From an uncultured bacterium (GTDB lineage Bacteria; Atribacterota; Atribacteria; Atribacterales; Caldatribacteriaceae), in contig CALAIW010000004.1 of assembly GCA_937922705.1 (NCBI GenBank), positions 1 to 44,617 on the forward strand: DNA of 44,617 nt, written 5' to 3'. Within the stretch, counting starts at the first letter, position 1. Each line of letters starts with the position of its first letter. Shown piece after piece: positions 8,834 to 42,509 of this stretch. The notes beneath the pieces are model-generated. The model was not told the origin of the DNA. It worked only from the letters and a program-made list of their open reading frames with translations, and ran no database searches. The position numbers were made by a program, and so were the translations under genes.

Positions 8834-9390
8834 TCCCTCTCACCCCGCAGAAGTTCTGCAACTTTCCCGCACGCTCGAGCTACTGCTCGACTCGAAATGG
8901 TCGCCCCACTCACTGCCTGCACGTCTTCCCCTATGGTGAAAGGACTTGTCAGGGGTTTACCCAGGAACTGGGAGAGAAAAGGCTCTGCAGCGACGTTGGA
9001 ACCAAGGCCCGGAGTTTCCTGGTGCTCTAAGACCCTGATGCCGGTAATTGTGCCTTTCTCAGTATCTACCCCGATAAGGAGTACGATAGGTCCACCATAT
9101 CCGGTGCTGGCAACTTTCACCACTATGCCCTGTCGCTTCCCGCCTTTTATGGCCTCGTACGCTTCAAGGAATTGGAGTTCTTTTGACTCTGGAATAGGTC
9201 CAAGGGTGGCAAGGTCTATAGGGGTAAAATTCTCTCCCTCGGGGAAAACCAAAGCGAGGGCTTCGTCGAGTTCTTTTCGAGCCTCGCTAGCGATTCGTTC
9301 TCTCGTCACCACGTACACAAAGGACAGTGCGAGGGCGGCAACACCACAAACCACAGTAAGGGCTAAGGCGGTACGGAGGATTTTAGTCAT
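8830..9390 (-). CDS. rnfG: Rnf complex subunit G, covalent-FMN protein
   Basis: Membrane-anchored extracytoplasmic flavoprotein of the Rnf complex. 186 residues: one N-terminal helix (6-28) and an FMN-binding domain whose flavinylation motif is visible as VSGATISS around residues 162-169, the Thr being the residue esterified to FMN in this family. EHQETPGLG around 120 is also conserved. ATGA overlaps join it to rnfD upstream and rnfE downstream. Flavin attachment needs an ApbE transferase, which is not in this window. Confidence 0.96.
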   Translation of the reverse strand: MTKILRTALALTVVCGVAALALSFVYVVTRERIASEARKELDEALALVFPEGENFTPIDLATLGPIPESKELQFLEAYEAIKGGKRQGIVVKVASTGYGGPIVLLIGVDTEKGTITGIRVLEHQETPGLGSNVAAEPFLSQFLGKPLTSPFTIGEDVQAVSGATISSRAVARACGKVAELLRGERE

Positions 9391-30656: not shown

Positions 30657-31760
30657 ATGGCTTTATTGCTCTTTCTGTTTCATTTTTTTATCGATTGGGC
30701 GAGCTCTTTCCCCGCACCTCTTGGTCCATACTTTGTAGAGCGATACAACCTGGATACCAGAACGGTTTCTGTGGCTATCACGGCGCTCGGTTTTCTTGGA
30801 TCTTTTGCCCAGCCGGTTTTTGCTCTCTTTCTTGGCAGGGTGAAGAATCACCTTGTGAGTCTCTACCTTTCCTTGTCTCTGGCCGCCCTTTCGGTGGTTT
30901 TTCTTTCTCTACCCCTCTCTTTTGTGCTCCTTTTTGGGGTTTTTCTTCTCCTCTTCCTCGCTAATGCCTCTTTCCATCCTGTGGGAGCAGCACTCTCTGG
31001 GGTACAAAATGGAGCCCAGGGTGTAGCGTTCTTTACGGCGGGGGGTATTGCTGGCGGAGTTATAGGACCCTTGTGTGTTACCTGGCTTGCTTTGCGCTTT
31101 TCTCTGGAGCCACTTTCCTGGATTGCTCTGGGGCTTTGGGGACTTCTCAGTATCGGTTTCTTTCGCTTTCGAGGGGTTACCCTTCGTGTTCCTTCTGCGT
31201 CCTTTTCCTTGCGTCTTTTTCCCGTTCTTTTCCCTATCTGGCTCCTAGTGGGAGTGCGAACGTTTTTCACCTCTCTTTTTCACACCTTTTTACCCCTCTA
31301 TGTCGCTTCCTTTGCTCCTATGTTTTGGGGTGGAGTGTTCCTTTCCCTGGGGGTTCTGGTTGGGTTTTTTGCCAACTTCCTTGGTGTTGCTCTTTTGAGG
31401 AGAGTTCCTATCTGGGTTATGAATTTTCTATCCTTCATTGGTCTTGGAATAGGATTGCTTTTCCTCCCCATGACCCAGAGTATCCCTCTTCTTTTTCTTC
31501 TCTCCCTTTCTGCCGATTTCTCTGCGTTCCTCACCATGAGTGCCAATGTTCACGAGGCGCAGGAAATCCTTCCTGAACACCGGGTCTTTGCCTCTTCTGT
31601 AGCTATGGGTCTAGCCTGGTCTTTTGGAAACCTTCTCAGTTTTGCCTTTGCAAGTGCTTTTGGCGATAGAGTAACTTTTGTTCTTGAAGTGTCGGGAATC
31701 CTTGGGATTCTTGTAGCCTTGACCCTCCTTGGTGTTCGTCCCCGTATTTTGAGGAGGTGA
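30657..31760 (+). CDS. MFS transporter, fosmidomycin-resistance (Fsr)-like
   Basis: Inner-membrane secondary transporter, 367 residues, about 11-12 predicted helices, a little short for MFS. HFFIDWASSFPAPLGPYF at 9-26 and FLANASFHPVGAALSG at about 100-115 match the Fsr subgroup (drug or metabolite efflux), the latter with the conserved HP. The charged loop after helix 2 (FLGRVKNH) corresponds to MFS motif A. The ribosome-binding site is inside a hairpin. The stop overlaps the Shine-Dalgarno of the next gene. Confidence 0.85.
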   Translation: MALLLFLFHFFIDWASSFPAPLGPYFVERYNLDTRTVSVAITALGFLGSFAQPVFALFLGRVKNHLVSLYLSLSLAALSVVFLSLPLSFVLLFGVFLLLFLANASFHPVGAALSGVQNGAQGVAFFTAGGIAGGVIGPLCVTWLALRFSLEPLSWIALGLWGLLSIGFFRFRGVTLRVPSASFSLRLFPVLFPIWLLVGVRTFFTSLFHTFLPLYVASFAPMFWGGVFLSLGVLVGFFANFLGVALLRRVPIWVMNFLSFIGLGIGLLFLPMTQSIPLLFLLSLSADFSAFLTMSANVHEAQEILPEHRVFASSVAMGLAWSFGNLLSFAFASAFGDRVTFVLEVSGILGILVALTLLGVRPRILRR

Positions 31761-31765
31761 AAGCT

Positions 31766-33517
31766 ATGCGGTATGTGCTTGTGGTCTTCTTTTGCCTTTT
31801 CTGGGTTTCTTGCCTTTGTGCCGCAGAATTTAGGGGTATCCAGGGGGTGTGGATTGACGTTCGGAGTATTCCCCAAACCCCAGAGGGCATACGAGACCTC
31901 GTGGAACACTTGCACAAAGCTCACTGTAATGCCCTTTTTGTGGAATCCTTTTACCGTGGGGAGACTATTTACCCATCTTCCTTTTGTGCCACGCAGGGTC
32001 TCTCCCCTCAAATGGAACCTTTCCGTTCCGCTTCTTTTGACCCTCTGGCCGTTTTTATAAAAGAGGCAAAAAAGCGGGGTATGCAGGTTCATGCCTGGTA
32101 CCACATGTTCTATGTGGGGCTTGATACGCCTGGACCGATACTTTCTCGCTTTCCCCAGTGGGTTGCCCGAAACCGCGATGGAACTGCCGGGTACGTCCAG
32201 GGTGGGAAACGTTTCTTTTTCGTTTGCCCAATGCATGAGGGAGTGCTTGAGTTTTACCAGGGGCTTCTTGAGGAAGTTGCCACAAAGTATGACCTTGACG
32301 GCATTCACCTTGACTACTTTCGTTTCCCCGACCCCACCCTTGCCGATGCTTGCTATTGCGAGAACTGCCGAGAAACCTTTAGGAGAGCTTATGGTTTTGA
32401 CCCCCTTTTCCTCGACCCTGTAAAGGATTTTGAAAAGCACCAAAAGTGGATTGCCTTTCGAGCAGATGCTCTTTCGCGCTTTGCCGCATCTTTAGCACAT
32501 TCTGTACGCAGGGTCCGCCCAGAGGTACTCCTCTCCTGCGCAGTCAAACCCTTTGGTTTCCCTCTTTTGGGGTATCCAGGTTTTCTCCAGGACTGGCCAA
32601 GATGGGGGAAAGAGAGAATTTTCGATTTCCTTGTTCCTATGACGTACAGTTCGCGACCAGCAGAGTTTGAAGGGCTTCTCCTCTGGGTTCGAACATTCCT
32701 GCGGGAAACCCCATTTTGCGCTGGTGTCTGGTGCGCTGGGATGGAGAAAGAAAAAGTTCTCGATGAAGTTCATCGAGCTTGGAAGCACACCCCTTTAGGT
32801 GTGGTGCTCTTTGCTTTACCGTACCTTTCTGAAGACCTTTTGGCAAGCGTCTTTGCAGGATCTGTTGCACCCCCTTCTTTGGAGGATTTCCCCAATCTTT
32901 TGGCTTTGCCCCTTGCTCCTCAAGATTTTCTGAACCGGAGACGTACTATCGTGGCAAGATACGCTGCCTCTCCCGTAACTATCGATGGGGTTCTTGAGGA
33001 TGTGTGGCAGTATGCCGACTGGCAAGGGGATTTCGTGTCTATCCTTGGGGAAAGAGCGCAGGAGGAAACGAGGGTTGCTTGTCTTTACGATGCGCATAAT
33101 CTCTACGTTGCCTACCTTATCAGGGGCTCTTTTGCCCCAGGTCGCATCACCGCCTATGATGGTCCAGTGTTTTACGATGACTCTGTAGAGCTTTTCCTCG
33201 ACCCTTGGTTGAGTCGGAGTTTCTTCCTTCAGTTTGCCACAAATGCCCTGGGCACAAAATACGATGCGTCGTCGTTTCTTGGAGCTCGTTTTGAGGGGGC
33301 ATGGGAGGTAGGCGTAAAGAGCGAAGGTGATGAAACCGTTATAGAGATGATGATACCCTTTGTTACGCTTTCCAAAGAGGTGCCGAAAGAAAACGAGATG
33401 TGGGGTGTGAACTTTTGCCGAAACAACGTAACTTTGGGAGCATTTTCAAGCTGGAGCCCAATGCCTGGGGTGTACGGAGCGTCATTTTTCTTTGGGACCT
33501 TGGTTTTTGAGCCCTAA
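31766..33517 (+). CDS. Exported GHL10-type glycosidase-like protein with C-terminal CBM9-like domain
   Basis: 583 residues. The start ATG at 31766 has AGGAGGTGA; a GTG at 31757 overlaps that site. Signal peptide to about residue 20 (CLCAAEF). Domain 1 (about 22-330) is a DUF187/PF02638 glycosyl-hydrolase-like TIM barrel: RGIQGVWIDVRSI, NALFVESFYRG, MQVHAWYHMFYVG, DLDGIHLDYFRFPDP and FDFLVPMTYSS; the acidic pair likely acts in catalysis. Domain 2 (about 400-583) resembles a CBM9-type sugar-binding beta-sandwich (VTIDGVLEDVWQYADW, YDDSVELFLDPW). Members are linked to peptidoglycan or polysaccharide. It ends the ilvE-led operon. Confidence 0.85.
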   Translation: MRYVLVVFFCLFWVSCLCAAEFRGIQGVWIDVRSIPQTPEGIRDLVEHLHKAHCNALFVESFYRGETIYPSSFCATQGLSPQMEPFRSASFDPLAVFIKEAKKRGMQVHAWYHMFYVGLDTPGPILSRFPQWVARNRDGTAGYVQGGKRFFFVCPMHEGVLEFYQGLLEEVATKYDLDGIHLDYFRFPDPTLADACYCENCRETFRRAYGFDPLFLDPVKDFEKHQKWIAFRADALSRFAASLAHSVRRVRPEVLLSCAVKPFGFPLLGYPGFLQDWPRWGKERIFDFLVPMTYSSRPAEFEGLLLWVRTFLRETPFCAGVWCAGMEKEKVLDEVHRAWKHTPLGVVLFALPYLSEDLLASVFAGSVAPPSLEDFPNLLALPLAPQDFLNRRRTIVARYAASPVTIDGVLEDVWQYADWQGDFVSILGERAQEETRVACLYDAHNLYVAYLIRGSFAPGRITAYDGPVFYDDSVELFLDPWLSRSFFLQFATNALGTKYDASSFLGARFEGAWEVGVKSEGDETVIEMMIPFVTLSKEVPKENEMWGVNFCRNNVTLGAFSSWSPMPGVYGASFFFGTLVFEP

Positions 33518-33570
33518 AAACACCTATAGGGGAGCCGCCTCTCTGCGGGAAGGCAGCCCCCCTATAGGTG
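33516..33570 (-). terminator. Strong intrinsic terminator of the GGDEF/HD-GYP gene
   Basis: Inverted repeat CACCTATAGGGG (33521-33532) / CCCCTATAGGTG (33559-33570), extended inward by GCC/GGC pairs. On the minus strand the stem is followed by TTTTTAGGG, the U-run of a terminator for the gene ending at 33667. On the plus strand no T run follows, though the stem may still protect the 3' end of the glycosidase-like transcript. Confidence 0.75.
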
Positions 33571-33666
33571 CAAGGAGGGGATTTTCGCTCGTTAGAAATC
33601 TTTCCGAAACTCCAAAGGGTATTATATTGGCTTTCTTGAATCTGTCAAGGGGTCAAGGAAAATTTT

Positions 33667-35754
33667 TTAAAAAATTTTTGAAACTTCGTTAAGGGTATCG
33701 TGGCCGAGGCTAAGCGCTTGCTCTTTGACCACCTGCAGAAATACTTGAACGAGCTCTGGGTCAAACTGTGTCCCTGCACCTTTGGTAATCTCCTCTAAAG
33801 CCTTAGAGAAAGACATGGCTTTTTGGTACGGACGGTTGCTTGTCATTGCTACAAAAGCGTCGATGATTGCAATGATGCGGGCAAAAAGGGGAATGTCCTT
33901 GCCTTTGAGTCCTTGAGGGTATCCTGTGCCATCAAAATGCTCATGGTGGGCCAAAACACCCTCAGCAATGGGGAGGAGTTCTGGGAAAAGGCGAGCGATG
34001 CGGTATCCAACTTCGGGGTGTTTGCGGATTTCTGCCCACTCTTTCTCGGTGAGGGATTCGGTTTTCACCAGGATAGCTTGGGGGATGGCTACCTTTCCTA
34101 GGTCGTGGAACTGGGCAAGAAGGACAAGGTTATCGGTTTCTGCCTTTGAGAGGCCAAGAGCCTCGCCCATTTTCTGGGCAAGGATGCGCATGCGTTCGTG
34201 GTGCGTTTCCATTTCCCCTGGGGTTTCTCGGAGGTACTGCTCAAGGAAAAGGAGGAAAGCAGTGCGGGAACTTTTGGTTTTGGCAGTCTTACTCTGGTAC
34301 ATGCGATTTTCTGCTTCGCTAAGGATGGTGTCGATGTCTTCATGTTCCTTCTCTTTTGTAGCACATCCCAAGGCCATGCTTACAGGAAAAGGAGTTTCTC
34401 TCTTCTTGGACTCCTCATCACAGAGTTTTTGAATGCGCTGGAGGATATCTTGTGCAGCAGCAAAGGGAGTTTTGGGAAGGAGAATGACAAATTCATCTCC
34501 ACCGAAACGGCAGACAATGTCCTCTTTTCGACATGCACGGGTAAGGATTGCAGAAACCTTTTTGAGAAGCGCATCGCCTTGGGAATGCCCAAAAACGTCG
34601 TTTACGAGTTTGAGGCCATTCACATCAACCATAACAACGCTTAGGGGGAGTTGGCGGGGAACGTCGAGTCGCTTCAGGGCATCCTCAAAGAAAAGGCGGT
34701 TATAGAGGCCAGTGAGGGGGTCGTGGAACGTAAGGTAGAGAATGCGTTCCTCGGCTTGTTTTTTCGCAGTAACATTGGAGGAGATGGTAACTACCCGAAA
34801 AACCTGACCTTCTTCGTCAAGAATAGGATACGCTCTCTGGTGCCAGATAGTGCCATCATGGGAGGTAACTTCGGCCTCTTCCGTTTTCCCAGTAACAAAG
34901 GCTCTCACCGTCGCACATCCAGGACAGGGAGTATTTCGTTTTTCGAAAACCTCAAAGCAGTACTTTCCAATAACCTCCTTGGGTTCAAGGTGAAGGCTCC
35001 GAAGTACTGCCTGGTTCACCCAAACGATTCTTGGTCCTTTCTCGTAGTAAACCACCCGGTCCTCAAGAGCATTAAGGATGAGCACCTTTTCCTTTTCTGA
35101 TGCTCTCAGAGCTTCCTCTATTCTCTTTTGCTCAGTGATATCCCGGCTTATTCCTACTAGGCCAACAATATCTCCTTTCTCGTCGCGAAGGGGAACCTTG
35201 TTTGTGACCATCCAGATTTTTCGTGGCACTCCGGCAGAAGAGTCAAGAACCTCCCGCTCATCATGGAGCATTGGCGTTCCATTGTGCAAAAGCTCTTCTT
35301 CCTTTTCCCAGAGGTAACGTGCAACCTCCTCCGGATAAAGGTCAAAGTCGGTTTTTCCAAGCACTTCATCAGGGGAGGTGAACCCATGGTGGTGAGCGAA
35401 AGCCGCGTTGGCAAAGGTAAAGCGGTGGTTGCGGTCCTTCACATAAACGTGCTCGGGTAGAGCGTTAACACCTGCAAGAAAGAGACGCTTTTCCTTGAGG
35501 TATCGCTGGAGTTCTTCGAAACGTTTTTCCCAAAAGACAAGAACCTTCCAGGATCCCTCCTTTTCGAAAGAGAGCATGGTGAGTTCTAAGGTTTTTTCGC
35601 CTACCTTCCATGAGGTATCCTGGGGGATTTGGGAAAGAATGCTCTTGAGCCCAACAGTATCACCAGGAGCGAGGGAGAGGAGGTGAAAAGCTCCCTCACT
35701 GGCGGCAATGACCGCCCCTTTTGCGTCCATAACAACAACGCCTATTTCCTCCAC
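33667..35754 (-). CDS. PAS-PAS-GGDEF-HD-GYP bifunctional c-di-GMP protein
   Basis: Cytoplasmic sensor that may both make and degrade c-di-GMP. 695 residues. Two or three PAS-type domains (about 1-80 weak, 90-215 clear with LPEHVYVKDRNHRFTFANAA, 220-345 with CPGCATVRAF, a possible metal or haem site). GGDEF domain about 350-510: DPLTGLYNRLFFED, active site RFGGDEF intact, with RxxD inhibitory site (RKED) five residues before. HD-GYP domain about 520-680: FHDLGKVAIP, HHEHFDGTGYPQGLKG and DAFVAMTSNRPY. Start GTG at 35754 has AGGGGAG nine bases upstream; the frame is closed by TAG ten codons earlier. Both catalytic sites look intact. Confidence 0.95.
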   Translation of the reverse strand: MEEIGVVVMDAKGAVIAASEGAFHLLSLAPGDTVGLKSILSQIPQDTSWKVGEKTLELTMLSFEKEGSWKVLVFWEKRFEELQRYLKEKRLFLAGVNALPEHVYVKDRNHRFTFANAAFAHHHGFTSPDEVLGKTDFDLYPEEVARYLWEKEEELLHNGTPMLHDEREVLDSSAGVPRKIWMVTNKVPLRDEKGDIVGLVGISRDITEQKRIEEALRASEKEKVLILNALEDRVVYYEKGPRIVWVNQAVLRSLHLEPKEVIGKYCFEVFEKRNTPCPGCATVRAFVTGKTEEAEVTSHDGTIWHQRAYPILDEEGQVFRVVTISSNVTAKKQAEERILYLTFHDPLTGLYNRLFFEDALKRLDVPRQLPLSVVMVDVNGLKLVNDVFGHSQGDALLKKVSAILTRACRKEDIVCRFGGDEFVILLPKTPFAAAQDILQRIQKLCDEESKKRETPFPVSMALGCATKEKEHEDIDTILSEAENRMYQSKTAKTKSSRTAFLLFLEQYLRETPGEMETHHERMRILAQKMGEALGLSKAETDNLVLLAQFHDLGKVAIPQAILVKTESLTEKEWAEIRKHPEVGYRIARLFPELLPIAEGVLAHHEHFDGTGYPQGLKGKDIPLFARIIAIIDAFVAMTSNRPYQKAMSFSKALEEITKGAGTQFDPELVQVFLQVVKEQALSLGHDTLNEVSKIF

Positions 35755-35932: not shown

Positions 35933-35961
35933 TTGACTTCCCCTTTTTGGGATGCTACCAT
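35933..35961 (+). promoter_or_regulatory. Promoter of the dctP operon
   Basis: -35 TTGACT (35933-35938), exactly 17-base spacer, -10 TACCAT (35956-35961), about 30 bases before the dctP start. The -10 lies inside an inverted repeat, so it is probably repressed by a bound regulator. Confidence 0.7.
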
Positions 35962-35976
35962 CGTAGTATCCCAAAA
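35945..35976 (+). promoter_or_regulatory. Operator palindrome over the dctP promoter (candidate GntR box)
   Basis: TTTTGGGATGCTAC (35945-35958), loop CATC, GTAGTATCCCAAAA (35963-35976); 13 of 14 pairs match. The inner 18 bases (35952-35969) match the box in front of the gntR gene at 14 of 18 positions. It covers the -10 and the expected start point, which suits a repressor. It would also form a hairpin if transcribed, but it has no T run and precedes the gene. Confidence 0.7.
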
Positions 35977-35992
35977 GAGAGGGGGTAAGTGG

Positions 35993-36967
35993 ATGCGCTG
36001 GTTCTTTCTGATTGTCTTCCTCACTCTTTTTAGCGCGGTAATGCTTTCTGCGCTAGTGGAAGCAAAGGTCGTTTGGAAGTTCGGACATCTTGTGAATGAG
36101 GAGCATATGTGGCACCGCACAGCAGTGAAGTTTGCCGAACTTGTGAGAGAAAAAACCAATGGGGCAATTGAAATTGCCATTTATCCAAATGAACAACTTG
36201 GGAAGGAAATCGAGGTTCTTACCATGATCCAGGCTGGAACAGCAGACCTTACCATCTCTGGAGAGTCTATGCAAAACTGGGCTCCAAAGGCTGCCCTTAT
36301 TGCCGCTCCATATGCCTTTAAGAGCATTGACCACATGATACGGGCCATAAATAGCGACATTGGTCACGAGATTCGCCAAGAAATCATCGAAAAAGTTGGA
36401 GTTATTCCTCTGTACTACCACATCCGGGCTCCTCGAAACCTTACATCGAATAAACCCGTGTCCAAGCCGGAGGATGCTCGGGGTCTCCGTCTGCGTCTTC
36501 CCAATGTCCCCCTCTTTGTGGAGGCGTGGAAAGCGGTGGGGGCAAGTCCCCAGGTCATGGCCTTCAGTGAGGTTTTCACCGCACTCCAGCAAGGGGTTAT
36601 CGATGCTCAAGAGAATCCCTATGACCTTATCTATAACGCAAGCTTTTATGAGGTTCAGAAATATGTCAATGAGACAGAGCACGTTATCGGGTGGGTGTGG
36701 GTAGTTCTTGGAAAGAAGCAGTTTGAATCTCTTCCCAAGGAGCTTCAGGATGCTGTTCTTGCTGCTGCCCAGGAAGCGCAGAAATACGCCGATCTCCTTT
36801 TCTGGCAGGAGATGCCCACCTTCAAGCAAAAGCTTATTGAGAAGGGTATGATGATCAACTCCGATGTGGACAAGGAAGCTTTCCGGAAGATCATGTCCGA
36901 GGCGGTGGAGAGGGTTTTGACTCCAGAACAGGCAGATCTTTACCGGAGAATTCAAGAGCTCGAGTAA
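35993..36967 (+). CDS. dctP: TRAP transporter substrate-binding protein, DctP family
   Basis: Periplasmic binding protein for an organic acid, probably a uronate or aldonate given its operon. 324 residues. The start ATG at 35993 follows GGGGG by seven bases. Signal peptide about 1-22 (LSALVEA-KVV). Family features: FGHLVNEEHMWHRTAVKFAE (28-47), PNEQLGKEIEVLTMIQAGTADL (around 65-86), the carboxylate-clamp Arg in ARGLRLRLPNVPLFVEAWKA (around 160) and TALQQGVIDAQENP (around 190-203). It is separated from dctQ by a terminator, so it can be made in excess. Confidence 0.95.
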   Translation: MRWFFLIVFLTLFSAVMLSALVEAKVVWKFGHLVNEEHMWHRTAVKFAELVREKTNGAIEIAIYPNEQLGKEIEVLTMIQAGTADLTISGESMQNWAPKAALIAAPYAFKSIDHMIRAINSDIGHEIRQEIIEKVGVIPLYYHIRAPRNLTSNKPVSKPEDARGLRLRLPNVPLFVEAWKAVGASPQVMAFSEVFTALQQGVIDAQENPYDLIYNASFYEVQKYVNETEHVIGWVWVVLGKKQFESLPKELQDAVLAAAQEAQKYADLLFWQEMPTFKQKLIEKGMMINSDVDKEAFRKIMSEAVERVLTPEQADLYRRIQELE

Positions 36968-36991: not shown

Positions 36992-37027
36992 AAAAGCCTC
37001 GGCGAATGTGCCGAGGCTTTTCTTTTT
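36992..37027 (+). terminator. Intercistronic terminator between dctP and dctQ
   Basis: Stem AAAAGCCTCGGC / GCCGAGGCTTTT with loop GAATGT, followed by CTTTTT. Perfect 12-pair stem. dctQ begins 14 bases later with no promoter visible between, so it must be read through in part. Confidence 0.85.
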
Positions 37028-37040
37028 GAGGTGAGGAAGG

Positions 37041-37508
37041 ATGAAGGGAAAAGGAGATATGCTTGAGCGAGTTCTTGAGACAGGGATGTTCGTATCTTTC
37101 CTTATCCTTGTTGGGGTAGTTATGCTCAGTGTTACCACGCGTTTTTTTCTCCCTTTTGTGGTCTTTTCCTGGACAGAGGAGACTTCACGTTTTCTTTTCC
37201 TGTGGATGGTAGCTTTAGGAGCACCTTGCGCTCTGAAACGTGGAGAATTTGTGAGCGTGGATTTCCTTATGGGTCGCTTCCCACAAAGGTTTCGAAAATG
37301 GTTTCAGTCTGTGTTCTACGGTATTACCGGGGGATTCTTTACTGTTGTGTTCTTTTTTAGCCTCCAGTTTGCACGGCTTGGTTTTCTGCAGATGTCGCCC
37401 ACTATGCGCATTCCTATGGTCTTTGCCTATCTCAGTATGGTCGTCACTTCCTTCCTCATTGCTTTGTACGCCTTTGTGCTCCTTTTCCAAAGGGGTGATG
37501 CACGATGA
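37041..37508 (+). CDS. dctQ: TRAP transporter small membrane subunit, DctQ family
   Basis: 155 residues, four predicted helices (about 13-33, 45-63, 85-105, 127-147). Conserved DctQ features: SVTTRFFLPFVVFSWTEETSRF (around 30-51), LGAPCALKRGEFVSVDF (around 58-74) and MRIPMVFAYLSM near 120. Shine-Dalgarno GAGGTGAGGAAGG precedes the ATG. Its stop overlaps the dctM start. Confidence 0.95.
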   Translation: MKGKGDMLERVLETGMFVSFLILVGVVMLSVTTRFFLPFVVFSWTEETSRFLFLWMVALGAPCALKRGEFVSVDFLMGRFPQRFRKWFQSVFYGITGGFFTVVFFFSLQFARLGFLQMSPTMRIPMVFAYLSMVVTSFLIALYAFVLLFQRGDAR

Positions 37509-38779
37509 TGGCCCTTGTGCTTTTCCTTATGTTCGTCGGGCTTCTCCTTTTGGGTTTCCCAGTTGCCTTCTCCCTTGGGGTTGCATCCCTCTTCTACCTT
37601 GTGGTCAAAGGAATTCCTCTCAGTATTATTCCTCAGAAGATGTACTCAGGAATTGACTCTTTTGTCCTTCTTTGCATTCCCGCTTTTATCGTTGCGGGAA
37701 ACCTTATGAACACTGCTGGTATTACCCGACGTATTATTAACTTTTCGAATGCCCTTGTGGGGTTCATTAGGGGGGGACTGGCTCTTGCCAATGTTGCTGC
37801 GTCTATGATTTTTGCCGGGATATCTGGGACGGCTCTTGCGGATACGGCAAGCATAGGTGCTATCCTCATACCGGCAATGAAGGACGAAGGGTACGATGCC
37901 GACTTTTCAGCGGCAGTTACGGCGTCTTCTTCAACCGTTGGGCCAATTATTCCCCCGAGTGTTCCTATGATTATCGTTGGAACACTCACAGGACTCTCAG
38001 TTACCCGTCTTTTCCTTGCAGGAGCCATTCCTGGAGTTATTCTCGGCTTTGCTCTCATGGCCATTACTTACTACCTTTCAGTGAAGAGGAAGTACCCCAA
38101 AGAGGAAAAACTACCTCTGCGGCTTATTATCCGCGCTTTTCTTGACGCCTCCTTTGCACTGGGTATGGTTGTGCTCATCCTCTTTGGTATTCTTGGTGGT
38201 GTTTTCACTCCTACCGAGGCTTCAGTGGTTGCCGTAGTCTATGCGCTCCTTGTGGGTCTTTTTGTATACCGGGAATTGAAGCTCCGAGATGTTCCTCGCA
38301 TTATTATTGAATCGGCTCGGATGACGACCTCGGTCATGATTCTCGTGGGCCTGGCACGTCTTTTTGCCTGGATCATCACCACCGAAAGGATTCCTCAAAT
38401 TGTTGCCCAGGGAATACTCAATATTTCCACAAATCCTTATGTAGTCATTCTCCTCATCAATGCTATACTCCTTTTTGTTGGATGTTTTATGGAGACCGTA
38501 GCGGCTCTGGTCATTTTTGTTCCGGTTTTGCTTCCTGTAGCCACAAGAATTGGTATGGATCCAATTCATTTTGCTGTTATGGTGGTTTTAAACCTCATTA
38601 TTGGTCTCACGACACCCCCTGTGGGAGTGTGCCTTTTTGTAGCTGCAAATATTGCGAGAATCTCTCTTGGTGAGCTGGTTAAGGCCATGGTACCGTTTTT
38701 GCTTGTTCTTCTTGCGGTGCTCTTTCTTGTGAGTTATGTACCATCATTGAGCCTTACCTTGCCAAATCTTTTACGATAG
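37505..38779 (+). CDS. dctM: TRAP transporter large membrane subunit, DctM family
   Basis: Na+-driven transport subunit, 424 residues, 11-12 predicted helices. Family landmarks: GFPVAFSLGVASL (around 18-30), FAGISGTALADTASIGAILIPAM (around 103-125), SSSTVGPIIPPSVPMII (around 142-158, the ion-site signature), GVFTPTEASVVAVVYA and ETVAALVIFVPVLLPVA, LTTPPVGVCLFV near the end. Start ATGATG overlaps the dctQ stop; AAAGGGGTGA lies upstream. Complete and without lesions. Confidence 0.96.
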   Translation: MMALVLFLMFVGLLLLGFPVAFSLGVASLFYLVVKGIPLSIIPQKMYSGIDSFVLLCIPAFIVAGNLMNTAGITRRIINFSNALVGFIRGGLALANVAASMIFAGISGTALADTASIGAILIPAMKDEGYDADFSAAVTASSSTVGPIIPPSVPMIIVGTLTGLSVTRLFLAGAIPGVILGFALMAITYYLSVKRKYPKEEKLPLRLIIRAFLDASFALGMVVLILFGILGGVFTPTEASVVAVVYALLVGLFVYRELKLRDVPRIIIESARMTTSVMILVGLARLFAWIITTERIPQIVAQGILNISTNPYVVILLINAILLFVGCFMETVAALVIFVPVLLPVATRIGMDPIHFAVMVVLNLIIGLTTPPVGVCLFVAANIARISLGELVKAMVPFLLVLLAVLFLVSYVPSLSLTLPNLLR

Positions 38780-38788
38780 GGGGGTACG

Positions 38789-39805
38789 ATGGTGCGAGCG
38801 GTGCTTGTGCCAGAGCCGGGAAAGCTTGTTCTTGCTGAGAAAGCTGTGCCAATCATTAGAGAGAGTACCGAAGTTCTCGTGCGGGTTAAAGCCGGGGGAA
38901 TCTGTGGAACAGACCTCCACATATTCCATGGGACTTCTCCTGTAGCCACATATCCACGGGTCATTGGGCATGAGTTCGTTGGAGAGGTGGTAGCGCGAGG
39001 AAGGGGGGTTACGCGAGTACGAGAGGGAGATCACGTGGTGGTAGAACCAATCTTTTTTTGTGGGAAGTGTTACCCCTGTTCTATTGGAAGACCTAATGTG
39101 TGTGAAAACCTTGAGGTTATGGGGGTACATCGGGATGGGGGGTTTCAGGAGTACGTCGTAGTACCGGAACGTAATGTCTACCCTTTTTCCAAGGACATTT
39201 CCTGGGAAGAAGCCGTTCTTATGGAGCCTTTTACCATTGCTTTGCAGGTTGCTGATAGGGGAAACATCGCCTCTTCAGACACAGTCTTTATTATAGGGGC
39301 GGGTCCCATAGGCCTTTGTATTCTTGCGTACCTTAAATACCTGGGAGCACAGTGTGGGATATCGGATATTATTCCAAAGCGTTTGGAGAGAGCTAAAAAT
39401 CTTGGAGCAGATTTTGTGGTGCATTCCGGAGAAGAAAATCTTGAAAGAGAGGTTTTGCGCCACTTTCCAGGTGGAGCTCATGTGGTGATTGATGCTTCTG
39501 GTCTTCCCGAAACCTTTGCACAGGCGGTGCAACTTGCCTCCCGGGCAGGAAGAGTTGTGGTTCTTGGGTTTCACACCGCACCCTCTCCTATTCCTCAGGC
39601 CTCCATCACCCTTCGAGAGCTTACCATTGTGGGCTCAAGGCTTCAGGCGCACAAATTCCCCCAGGTTGTAGCGCTCTTTGAGGAACGAAAGCTACAGCCA
39701 GGAAAACTTGTGAGCCACGTGTTTTCTTTTGAGAGAGTTCATGAGGCCTTTGCGCTTCTTGAACACTATCCGGAGGAAACCTGTAAAGTTCTTCTCTCCT
39801 TTTAG
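38789..39805 (+). CDS. Zinc-dependent medium-chain dehydrogenase (sugar-acid/polyol type)
   Basis: NAD(P)-dependent alcohol dehydrogenase, 338 residues. Catalytic zinc ligands: Cys in AGGICGTDLHIFHG (around 39), GHEFVGEV (His-Glu around 60). Structural zinc: CGKCYPCSIGRPNVC (around 91-105), C-x2-C-x2-C-x8-C as read. Rossmann glycine pattern IIGAGPIGLCILAYLK near 170. Closest in style to RspB, L-threonine dehydrogenase and galactonate-5-dehydrogenase-like enzymes. In this operon an oxidation or reduction of a hexonate or hexuronate is the likely job, by inference. Start follows dctM after nine bases. Confidence 0.92.
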   Translation: MVRAVLVPEPGKLVLAEKAVPIIRESTEVLVRVKAGGICGTDLHIFHGTSPVATYPRVIGHEFVGEVVARGRGVTRVREGDHVVVEPIFFCGKCYPCSIGRPNVCENLEVMGVHRDGGFQEYVVVPERNVYPFSKDISWEEAVLMEPFTIALQVADRGNIASSDTVFIIGAGPIGLCILAYLKYLGAQCGISDIIPKRLERAKNLGADFVVHSGEENLEREVLRHFPGGAHVVIDASGLPETFAQAVQLASRAGRVVVLGFHTAPSPIPQASITLRELTIVGSRLQAHKFPQVVALFEERKLQPGKLVSHVFSFERVHEAFALLEHYPEETCKVLLSF

Positions 39806-39820
39806 AGGGAGGTGGGTAGA

Positions 39821-40651
39821 GTGTTCAATTTTACTGGGAAGGTTGCGGTTGTTACCGGTGGAGGCGGAGTCCTCTGCAGCATTTTCTCAAGAGCCTTGGC
39901 TTCTTATGGTGCGAAGGTTGCCGTTCTTGACCTGAATTTCGAAGCGGCACAAAGGGTTGCCGAGGATATAAGGACAAACGGTGGCGAAGCTTTAGCGGTG
40001 CAGTGCGATGTGCTCAGTCGGGAGAGTGTCTTAAAGGCAGCTGAAAGAGTACAAGAGGTTTTTGGAGAGTGGGATATTCTTATCAATGGAGCTGGGGGGA
40101 ATCATCCTCGTGGGACCCTGTCTCGAGAGTTTTTTGAACCTGGGGATCTTGAACAAAAGGAGACTTTCTTCGATCTCGATCTTGAGGGGTTCCGTTTCGT
40201 TTTCGATCTCAACCTTCTTGGTACCATTATCCCGACACAGGTTTTTGGGAGAGAGATGGCAAGAAGGGGTAAGGGTGTCATTATTACCATTGCTTCTATG
40301 GCTGCGTTTCGAGCCCTAACTCGGGTTCCTGCTTATGCAGCGGCAAAGGCAGCAGTAGCCAATTTCACCCAGTGGCTTGCTGTGTATCTAGGGAAATCGG
40401 GTGTGCGAGTTAATGCTATAGCACCGGGGTTTTTCCTGACACAGCAGAATTACCGTCTCCTTGTGGCTGAGGATGGGAGTTTTACCCCCCGAGCGCAAAA
40501 GATCCTTGCCCATACTCCCATGGGAAGGCTTGGAGAGCCCCAAGAGCTTATCGGAACACTTCTTTGGCTTTGTGACGATGAAGCTTCTGGTTTTGTTACC
40601 GGAGCAATTATTCCTGTGGATGGGGGATTTTTAGCGTATGCTGGAGTATAG
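39821..40651 (+). CDS. uxuB: SDR oxidoreductase, UxuB-like (D-mannonate/fructuronate oxidoreductase)
   Basis: NAD(P)-dependent short-chain dehydrogenase, 276 residues from GTG at 39821, eight bases after GGGAGG; GTG at 39812 lies on that site. Cofactor loop TGGGGVL (around 12-18), NGAGGNHPRGT (around 88) with the characteristic insertion FFEPGDLEQKETFFDLDLEG, catalytic Ser in IASMAAFRAL and YAAAK (around 165-169), then VNAIAPGFFLTQQN and HTPMGRLGEP. The insertion and the RAQKILAHTPMGR block match the Bacillus UxuB/YjmF group that interconverts fructuronate and mannonate. This suggests the operon handles hexuronates. Confidence 0.88.
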   Translation: MFNFTGKVAVVTGGGGVLCSIFSRALASYGAKVAVLDLNFEAAQRVAEDIRTNGGEALAVQCDVLSRESVLKAAERVQEVFGEWDILINGAGGNHPRGTLSREFFEPGDLEQKETFFDLDLEGFRFVFDLNLLGTIIPTQVFGREMARRGKGVIITIASMAAFRALTRVPAYAAAKAAVANFTQWLAVYLGKSGVRVNAIAPGFFLTQQNYRLLVAEDGSFTPRAQKILAHTPMGRLGEPQELIGTLLWLCDDEASGFVTGAIIPVDGGFLAYAGV

Positions 40652-40653
40652 GG

Positions 40654-40682
40654 TTGACATGAATATATTAGTATGGTAGTAT
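40654..40682 (+). promoter_or_regulatory. Promoter of the gntR gene
   Basis: -35 TTGACA (perfect, 40654-40659), 17-base spacer, -10 TAGTAT (40677-40682). It begins directly after the SDR stop codon, so the regulator and UroD-like gene can be expressed apart from the transport genes. Confidence 0.75.
40665..40682 (+). promoter_or_regulatory. Second candidate GntR box, in the gntR promoter
   Basis: ATATTAGTATGGTAGTAT covers the spacer and -10. Compared with the reverse complement of 35952-35969 (ATACTACGATGGTAGCAT), 14 of 18 positions agree, with shared outer halves ATA(C/T)TA and TAG(C/T)AT. Its position predicts autorepression. Confidence 0.6.
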
Positions 40683-40703
40683 GCAAAAGGAGGGGAAAAT
40701 ACG

Positions 40704-41384
40704 GTGGAACTTCTTTCGGTACCCAAAAGGGGCACTTCAGCTCGAGAGTATGTCTATGAGACGCTCAAACGGAGCATTATCTTTCTCTCCTTAAAGCCAG
40801 GGCAGAGCATAACTGAACAGGAGATTGCTGAAAAACTCTCGGTGAGCCGTACGCCTGTTCGAGAGGCGTTTATTCGCCTTGTTCAGGAGGGGTTACTTGA
40901 AACGTATCCTCAAAAGGGGACTGTGGTTTCCCTCATTGACCTGGAGCGGGTGGATGAAGCTCGTTTCATGCGCCGGACCTTGGAGAAAGCCATTCTTCGT
41001 CTTGCCTGTGAATCTTTTCCTTCGGATCTTGCCTTTGAGTTGCGCTCAAACCTTGCGCTCCAGGAAGTATGCCTTGAAGAACAAAATTTTATCCGTCTCT
41101 TCGAGCTCGATGAGGAATTTCATCGCCTCATTTACCGAGGATGCAAAAAGGAGCGTATTTGGGACCTTATTGCTCAAATCAATGCAGACTTTCGGCGTAT
41201 TAGGGTTTTAAAGCTTTCCCTGGGGATTGGGGTTGGAGAAGTGGTGCAACAACACCGGGAGATTGCGGGAGCGATTTTTGACCACAACGCAACACGGATT
41301 GAAGAGCTCGTTGAGGTACATCTTCCGCAAAATGACCCAGGTTTTGAGCGGCTACGAAGGGAGTATCCTGAGTACTTCGCATGA
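40704..41384 (+). CDS. GntR-family transcriptional regulator, FadR/FCD subgroup
   Basis: 226 residues. Winged-helix N-terminus: SAREYVYETLKRSIIFLSL (12-30), EIAEKLSVSRTPVREAFIRL (around 41-60, recognition helix), EGLLETYPQKGTVV. FCD effector domain: FELDEEFHRLIYRG with Asp and His, then QQHREI and EVHLPQND supply the other His of the metal and ligand site. Such proteins are usually repressors released by a sugar acid. The start is GTG, eight bases after AAAGGAGGGG. It probably controls dctP and itself through the related boxes. Confidence 0.94.
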   Translation: MELLSVPKRGTSAREYVYETLKRSIIFLSLKPGQSITEQEIAEKLSVSRTPVREAFIRLVQEGLLETYPQKGTVVSLIDLERVDEARFMRRTLEKAILRLACESFPSDLAFELRSNLALQEVCLEEQNFIRLFELDEEFHRLIYRGCKKERIWDLIAQINADFRRIRVLKLSLGIGVGEVVQQHREIAGAIFDHNATRIEELVEVHLPQNDPGFERLRREYPEYFA

Positions 41385-41471
41385 AGAGGCAAAAAAGAAG
41401 GTCACTGCCCTCATTCTTGTTCCACAGCTTTCTCTTGCTCTTGCAGGACTTATGAAGTAAGGAGGAGAAAC

Positions 41472-42509
41472 ATGGACGAGGTACGCTGGCGTTGGTTTCA
41501 GGAAAAGGTTTTTGGTGCAACAGAGCGTCATCCTCTTGTGGCCCTCATTGTTGATAGTCCTTGGATTCCAGGATGGCGAGGTATTTCCCATTTTGACTAC
41601 TATCTTTCTTTTGATGCTTGGCTTGAGGCAAACCTCAGAGTGTACGAGACGTATCCCCATATTATCTTCCTCCCTGGCTTCTGGGTAGAGTACGGCATGG
41701 CCACGGAGCCCTCAGGTTTCGGCTGTAAAATCAACTGGTATAGTGGAAGCACTCCAACCATAAATCCAGTGCTTCGGAGCATTGAGGAAGGAGAGACGCT
41801 TTCTGTTCCTGACCCTGAGCGAGATGGACTTATGCCCTTTGTACTGTGGTGGTACAGGAAAGCTCAGGATGTTCTTAAAGACCGGAATAGGTGCATCCGC
41901 ATGGTGGCGGCTCGCGGACCGCTTGTTACCGCGGCACACCTACGTGGGCTCACTGAATTCCTTCTCGACCTCAAAACAGAGCCAGAGAAAGCGAAAAGAC
42001 TTCTTGAGGTGACAACAGAAACAGTCATTGCCTGGCTCAAGGCACAGATTCAAGTTGTATCCACCTGTGAAGGTATCATGGTTCTTGACGATGTGGTGGG
42101 CTTTCTCTCTCGAAAGGATTACGAAGAGTTTGCTCATCCGTATCTTAAAGCGATTTTTGAGGCGTTTCCTGATATGATTCGGGTCTATCACAACGATGCC
42201 AACGTTCTCCCCTTTGCCGATTTACTCCCGGAGACAGGGCTTCAGGTGCTCAACTTCAGTCATACGGTAAGCATAAGGGACCTTGCAGAGAAGACCGGAG
42301 GAAAAATCTGTCTCATGGGGAACATTCCGCCCCTTGAGGTCCTGGCGCAGGGAACCCCAGAGGAAGTGCGGCAAAACGCTCTGTCCTGCCTTGAGGAAGC
42401 AAAAAACTTCAGTGGTCTTACATTGCTTCTTTCAGCAGGTGGTGGAGTATCTCCAGGAACTCCAGGCGAAAATATTGCCGTCCTTGAGGAAATCGCCGCC
42501 TCTTCATAG
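41472..42509 (+). CDS. URO-D family methyltransferase-like protein in the sugar-acid operon
   Basis: 345 residues, TIM-barrel protein of the URO-D superfamily, second member in this window but distant from the first. Features: RHPLVALIVDSPWIPGW near the N-terminus, MVAARGPLVTAAHLRGLTEFLLD (around 145-167), ICEGIMVLDD-like CEGIMVLDDVVGFLSRKDYEEF (around 203), IRVYHNDANVLPFADLLPETGL (YHND in place of the zinc-site YHSCG) and MGNIPPLEVLAQGT. The metal Cys of methyltransferases is therefore not obvious. AAGGAGGAG precedes the ATG. Reaction unknown; clearly not a haem-pathway setting. The 3' end overlaps the convergent HAD gene by six bases. Confidence 0.82.
   Translation: MDEVRWRWFQEKVFGATERHPLVALIVDSPWIPGWRGISHFDYYLSFDAWLEANLRVYETYPHIIFLPGFWVEYGMATEPSGFGCKINWYSGSTPTINPVLRSIEEGETLSVPDPERDGLMPFVLWWYRKAQDVLKDRNRCIRMVAARGPLVTAAHLRGLTEFLLDLKTEPEKAKRLLEVTTETVIAWLKAQIQVVSTCEGIMVLDDVVGFLSRKDYEEFAHPYLKAIFEAFPDMIRVYHNDANVLPFADLLPETGLQVLNFSHTVSIRDLAEKTGGKICLMGNIPPLEVLAQGTPEEVRQNALSCLEEAKNFSGLTLLLSAGGGVSPGTPGENIAVLEEIAASS

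Follow-up and report, generated by a model that had tools for sequence, protein, structure and literature searches.

Introduction

UxaR (TM0439) of Thermotoga maritima is a GntR-family regulator of hexuronate genes that has a site upstream of kdgA-kdgK-uxuB-uxuA and also targets transporters; its operator motif is 17 nt long, it binds in vitro with a Kd of 40-80 nM, and its inducer was not found (PMC3750489). In Escherichia coli, UxuR and ExuR are members of the FadR subfamily and use palindromic operators of the form TKGT-N2/3-ACMA (PMC4494728). The same survey catalogued FadR-subfamily regulators, with one from Clostridia and 18 from Bacilli, and described GntR-family palindromes that are accompanied by an extra half-site 7-12 nt from the centre of the main site (PMC4494728). 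E. coli NanR, also a GntR/FCD protein, binds (GGTATA)3 and requires at least two repeats, and its cooperativity depends on a 32-residue N-terminal extension (PMC8012715).

Here, we analyse a stretch of 44,617 nucleotides (the window; contig C4) of a Caldatribacterium genome of the phylum Atribacterota (G000; 1.85 Mb in 48 contigs, estimated completeness 99.4%), in which a TRAP transporter and uxuB lie next to a gntR gene (Table 1). By analogy, the system appears to be a GntR/FCD hexuronate regulon of a known type that would work like that of Thermotoga UxaR. The likeness to UxaR concerns the type of regulator, the hexuronate and transporter targets and the site at uxuA/kdgK; the sequence match is distant (about 49 bits). 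PDB sequence matches of the window regulator include 3sxy and 3fms, which we take to be structures of TM0439. UxuR and ExuR are also GntR/FCD proteins, and they repress hexuronate genes from palindromic operators, as the window regulator probably does; however, the window regulator scores only 25.2 bits against the E. coli UxuR model NF007588 (cut-off 442) and, thus, is not an E. coli-type UxuR. Moreover, the two window boxes, ATGCTACCATCGTAGTATCCC and ATATTAGTATGGTAGTATGC, do not conform to TKGT-N2/3-ACMA, and TAGTATACAA occurs in some relatives only. NanR, a GntR/FCD repressor of sugar-acid genes, resembles the probable role of the window regulator, and its close direct repeats resemble many gntR boxes. 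By contrast, its repeat sequence is different, its model gives 30.7 bits (cut-off 260), and the sites at uxuA and dctP studied here are dyads; NanR-type close direct repeats are present at many gntR boxes and absent at most uxuA boxes.

Results

Table 1. Features of the window, with positions counted from its first nucleotide
Feature	Position	Strand	Details
Possible RNA hairpin that would cover the dctP ribosome-binding site, restricted to read-through transcripts	35935-35990	+	Folding z
dctP promoter	35933-35961	+	TTGACT 35933-35938, 17-bp spacer, extended -10 TG-C-TACCAT 35956-35961
Probable dctP operator, 32-bp inverted repeat TTTTGGGATGCTAC-CATC-GTAGTATCCCAAAA	35945-35976		Conserved core ~35952-35972
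dctP, TRAP transporter solute-binding protein	35993-36967	+	Profile matches
dctQ, TRAP small permease	37041-37508	+	Profile matches
dctM, TRAP large permease	37505-38779	+	Profile matches
Zn-dependent sugar-acid/alcohol dehydrogenase	38789-39805	+	Closest NCBIfam model PRK10083, 354 bits, below cut-off 376
uxuB, SDR-type D-mannonate oxidoreductase (fructuronate reductase)	39812-40651	+	NF006132, 421.6 bits, cut-off 281
gntR promoter	40654-40682	+	TTGACA 40654-40659, 17-bp spacer, -10 TAGTAT 40677-40682 inside the probable operator
Probable gntR operator ATATTAGTATGGTAGTATGC	40665-40684		Orthologous sites in G003, G004, G014, G016
gntR, 226-aa GntR/FCD (FadR-type) regulator	40704-41384	+	PF00392, PF07729
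Relic of a second dctM, last ~20 codons (KVTALILVPQLSLALAGLMK, then stop)	41398-41460	+	Between gntR and the MtaA-like gene
URO-D/MtaA-family methyltransferase-like gene	41472-42509	+	Near gntR also in G004, G014, G016

The regulator contains a GntR winged helix (PF00392, 67.0 bits, cut-off 27) and an FCD domain (PF07729, 71.1 bits, cut-off 24.3). Residues D136, H140, H184 and H206, presumably the metal-binding Asp and three His that are usual in FCD domains, do not vary among four orthologues. It is common for FCD proteins to bind a carboxylate via the metal. The GntR domain starts at residue 15 and is, therefore, preceded by ~14 residues, i.e. the regulator does not have a long N-terminal extension of the NanR type.

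The preliminary description of this DNA reported a 14-base inverted repeat with one mismatch on the -10 of the dctP promoter, and this is exactly what the sequence contains: the arms (35945-35958 and 35963-35976) are 14 nt long, 93% complementary and 4 nt apart. No other inverted repeat of the window combines 14-nt arms with no more than one mismatch and a loop of 3-10, and no equivalent was found in 10 versions of the window in which consecutive base pairs had been shuffled. The predicted transcription start at ~35968 lies within the repeat, and the -35 and -10 elements are kept in relatives as well. The core is conserved in G001, G003 and G004. By contrast, the outer TTTTGGG/CCCAAAA arms, with their GGG/CCC, are private to the window genome; conservation is limited to the inner ~20 bp and, therefore, the 32-bp repeat overstates the operator. 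We considered that the repeat could be an intrinsic terminator and rejected this candidate, as neither strand has a T-run after the repeat and the repeat is absent among the terminator-like sites.

The second box lies, as previously reported, over the -10 of gntR, with TAGTAT contained in the box and a spacer of the same length as at dctP. It can be read as a dyad, ATATTA-N6-TAGTAT, and also as an 8-bp tandem of TAGTATGG (40669-40676) and TAGTATGC (40677-40684), which agree at 7/8 positions. The dctP box is a near-perfect dyad that as a direct repeat reaches just 5/8. Two details of the preliminary description are corrected here: the 18-mers ATGCTACCATCGTAGTAT and ATATTAGTATGGTAGTAT, i.e. the dctP core and 40665-40682, agree at 13 of 18 positions instead of 14, and the consensus of the two boxes is ATRYTA-N6-TAGTAT instead of ATA(C/T)TA-N6-TAG(C/T)AT. 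It had also been argued that many random genomic matches would speak against the proposed operators. With up to one mismatch, the 12-base consensus alone gives 11 matches genome-wide and 15 for the reversed control, i.e. no enrichment; with zero mismatches, its matches in the window genome are these two boxes only. The specificity of the operator resides in the longer conserved core described below.

Orthologues of the regulator are 85% identical in G004, a relative of the same genus (‘Candidatus Caldatribacterium californiense’, contig APKF01000166.1), 69% in G014 and 68% in G016, and fragments are present in G002 and G003. G003 and G004 carry both boxes; of the two, G001 has the one at dctP, whereas G014 and G016 have the one at gntR. 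The flanking intergenic DNA has changed among relatives while the core of the box is kept. Twelve aligned sites from six Atribacterota genomes give GnATryTAnyATgGTAGYATrC followed by an A-run, with ATgGTAGYATrC nearly invariant, and the broad dyad axis proposed at the outset is the best one for these sites. A shorter axis, TAGYATRCNA, is FadR-like and the best dyad of half-length 5 in Atribacterota; because the window dctP box and the Firmicutes sites lack it, it was not taken as the operator.

To search 13 genomes, a 25-base pattern with up to three mismatches was built from dctP and gntR sites, excluding those at kdgK-uxuA. It matched the dctP, gntR and kdgK-uxuA sites and nothing else, and its reversed control matched only twice, each time in a genome that lacks the regulator. 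The kdgK-uxuA locus is an unexpected third site in three relatives (G001, G003 and G004), and answers the earlier proposal to look for the box upstream of other uronate genes. The site lies just upstream of a PfkB-type sugar kinase gene, which on our reading of its sequence is kdgK-like, and the following gene encodes the mannonate dehydratase UxuA (NF003027, above cut-off).

Box and regulator are both present in G000, G003, G004, G014 and G016, and both absent in G005-G007, G012, G013 and G017. In G014 and G016, uxaC lies upstream of gntR and the neighbouring, downstream operon is different, and the gntR box is retained. G002 contains only broken pieces of gntR and of an MtaA-like gene (L042, near 9036-9370) and has no operator match; regulator and sites are lost together in this genome. 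In G001, the sites are present and gntR was not seen; here, the dctP contig ends after dctM.

A profile search of the window genome found no uxuA, its kinases reach only about 28% identity and a kdgK orthologue is absent, and a search for a ManD-type substitute for uxuA (RspA/ManD-type, PF13378) gave one marginal match only. The genome carries uxaC and a KDPG/KHG aldolase-family gene, and a complete glucuronate-to-KDG route was not found in it. Accordingly, there is no third site, and the physiological role of the operon in this genome is, therefore, incomplete. A gene like that at 31757-33517 precedes kdgK-uxuA in the three relatives; its window counterpart has a GGDEF/HD-domain gene of the opposite strand behind it (31757-35754 for both), so kdgK-uxuA is missing at that place.

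Outside the phylum, GTDB genomes were scanned with four orthologues as queries; 230 relatives were found, 80 of which were kept. These are 35-52% identical and come mostly from Firmicutes, with some from Spirochaetes and Synergistes, and most of their genes adjoin uxuA, uxuB or uxaC. Many of the distant gntR, uxuA and dctP homologues are preceded by ATGGTAGTAT with ATACTA at the left (ATACTA-N6-TAGTAT). A matrix made from the Atribacterota sites only matched upstream of uxuA in 18 of 52 cases (shuffles, 3/260 or 1.2%) and upstream of gntR in 40 of 81 (shuffles, 12/405 or 3.0%). When ATACTAGTATGGTAGYAT was searched with up to two mismatches in eight genomes, 14 of the 17 genome-wide matches lay, by our count, at most 7 kb from the regulator gene; the ~14.6-kb stretches around this gene make up about 0.35% of the DNA in the eight genomes. 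A recognisable box is missing in about half of the distant loci and is present in only two of 20 below 40% identity; therefore, only some members of the family share the motif. In one distant locus (L146), the box is a long and perfect palindrome.

Discussion

The box stands before sugar-acid genes in relatives as well as in distant Firmicutes, and therefore very probably represents the binding site of the regulator. Accordingly, the two boxes of the window would be the operators of the GntR/FCD protein encoded at 40704-41384, which, judged from sequence, acts with high probability as a repressor of hexuronate uptake and catabolism and of itself. This agrees with the earlier prediction of a FadR-type regulator that acts on its own gene as well as on the sugar-acid operon, as relatives retain the box at both promoters and the box travels with gntR where the neighbouring operon differs (G014 and G016) and in the distant loci. 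The genes that carry the box are those of a hexuronate regulon, i.e. the uxuB operon in the window, kdgK-uxuA in relatives, and uxuA, gntR and dctP in distant loci.

We suggest the following model for this regulon. A dimer of the regulator would bind ATRYTA-N6-TAGYAT (fuller core GnATryTAnyATgGTAGYATrC) and cover the -10 and the start point of both promoters, and would, therefore, block RNA polymerase at the dctPQM-dehydrogenase-uxuB operon and at gntR(-mtaA). That this is repression rather than activation we infer from the position of the box on the -10. The inducer would be a hexuronate or a pathway intermediate, for example fructuronate or mannonate, that is bound in the FCD pocket, with the release of the regulator and induction of uptake and catabolism as the expected result. 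In close relatives, kdgK-uxuA would be under the same regulator, too. Such a control circuit is sound and fairly ordinary for bacteria; the operator sequence appears to be undescribed. In the open-access literature searched, we found no specific description of this operator or regulon in Clostridia, Geobacillus or Caldatribacterium, and a search with the motif string returned chance matches only; such an absence is weak evidence. The pair of regulator and operator is testable, concerns hexuronate metabolism in a phylum on which few experiments have been done, and reaches into many Firmicutes, in which motifs of the FadR subfamily are scarcely catalogued.

The sites differ in how the half-site is arranged. 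Those at uxuA are mainly dyads, in which the left ATACTA is matched at 5.15 of six letters and a downstream repeat is found in one of 13. At most gntR sites, the palindrome is imperfect, and 15 of 25 distant gntR sites have a further TGGTAG-like unit (at least five of six letters) 8 bp downstream; at one of them (L082), four tandem 8-bp units follow each other in a row. Three loci (L085, L086 and L088) contain both arrangements, with a dyad at dctP and a tandem at gntR, and this difference between the two promoters is absent in L090, L094 and L097. Because related sequences are not independent, the contrast between dyad and tandem should be read as a tendency rather than a rule. The additional unit at gntR promoters resembles the extra half-sites of GntR-family palindromes (PMC4494728), except that it is in tandem orientation and often equally strong. 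We tentatively propose a regulator family common to Atribacterota and several Firmicutes lineages, with an operator outside the FadR consensus in which GTAGTAT may be inverted at enzyme and transport promoters and tend to an 8-bp tandem at the regulator’s own promoter. In that case, the complexes that repress the pathway genes and those that repress the regulator gene could differ in their assembly. A regulon that uses a single half-site in both arrangements would be a neat system for studying how a GntR/FCD dimer reads dyads and tandems.

Alternatively, the true recognition unit could be the 8-bp direct repeat (TAGTATGG)n, on which at least two dimers would sit next to each other as those of E. 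coli NanR do, with the palindrome as a by-product of the TA/AT symmetry of the repeat. The tandem reading of the window gntR box, the extra unit at distant gntR sites and the precedent of NanR, in which at least two repeats are required, all speak for this possibility; nevertheless, we regard it as rather unlikely, because the downstream repeat is nearly absent from the uxuA sites where the left ATACTA is well matched, the dctP box is a near-perfect dyad, the wide axis is the best for the 12 Atribacterota sites, and the L146 box is palindromic. Moreover, the short N-terminus of the regulator lacks the extension on which NanR cooperativity depends.

An improbable alternative to the dyad operator is that the dctP repeat acts as RNA: in read-through transcripts, the right arm and the ribosome-binding site would be sequestered by pairing to the left arm and a pyrimidine tract, and translation would be blocked. 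The folding z-scores (-6.0 in the window, -3.6 in G004 and -3.2 in G003) and the presence, opposite the ribosome-binding site in each genome, of pyrimidine tracts that differ between genomes are in line with such a structure, and CRISPR-type repeats directly upstream of dctP in G003 and G004 are a likely source of read-through. However, the gntR and kdgK boxes fold insignificantly (z 0.18 and 0.26), and the predicted start lies inside the right arm and, therefore, the operon’s own mRNA is without the left arm. In addition, any pyrimidine tract can easily pair with a ribosome-binding site that is rich in purines, and the few, closely related sequences provide no real covariation. The hairpin could add to the operator, not replace it, and might silence transcripts that read through; the conservation of the box is not accounted for by such a structure.

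It is very improbable that the boxes are those of another regulator and that their linkage to gntR is incidental. The window genome does encode several further GntR-family proteins, one of which could bind; however, none co-occurs with the box as gntR does, and the box follows gntR across phyla and, in Atribacterota, is present together with its orthologue in five genomes and missing where the orthologue is absent or, as in G002, broken. Finally, a chance inverted repeat, to which the lack of enrichment of the 12-base consensus at one mismatch might point, is refuted by the conservation of the core across genomes and has next to no probability given the shuffled controls.

The surroundings of the two operators show some further features. 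A strong terminator-like hairpin (36992-37021) between dctP and dctQ is kept, with a changed sequence, in G001, G003 and G004, and probably lowers the amount of permease relative to the binding protein. The URO-D/MtaA-like gene is probably transcribed from the gntR promoter; one guess for its place beside a hexuronate regulator is the demethylation of methylated uronates. At the position of the dctM relic, Ca. C. californiense has a full second TRAP transporter (L071), and the order in G014 is gntR-dctP'Q'M'-mtaA. Apparently, the second transporter was deleted in the window genome, and the relic is the scar. The CRISPR-type repeats upstream of dctP in G003 and G004 (L039, L043, L060 and L071) have the sequence GCCTACCTATGAGGGATT and a period of ~66 bp, with at least 11 units in L060.
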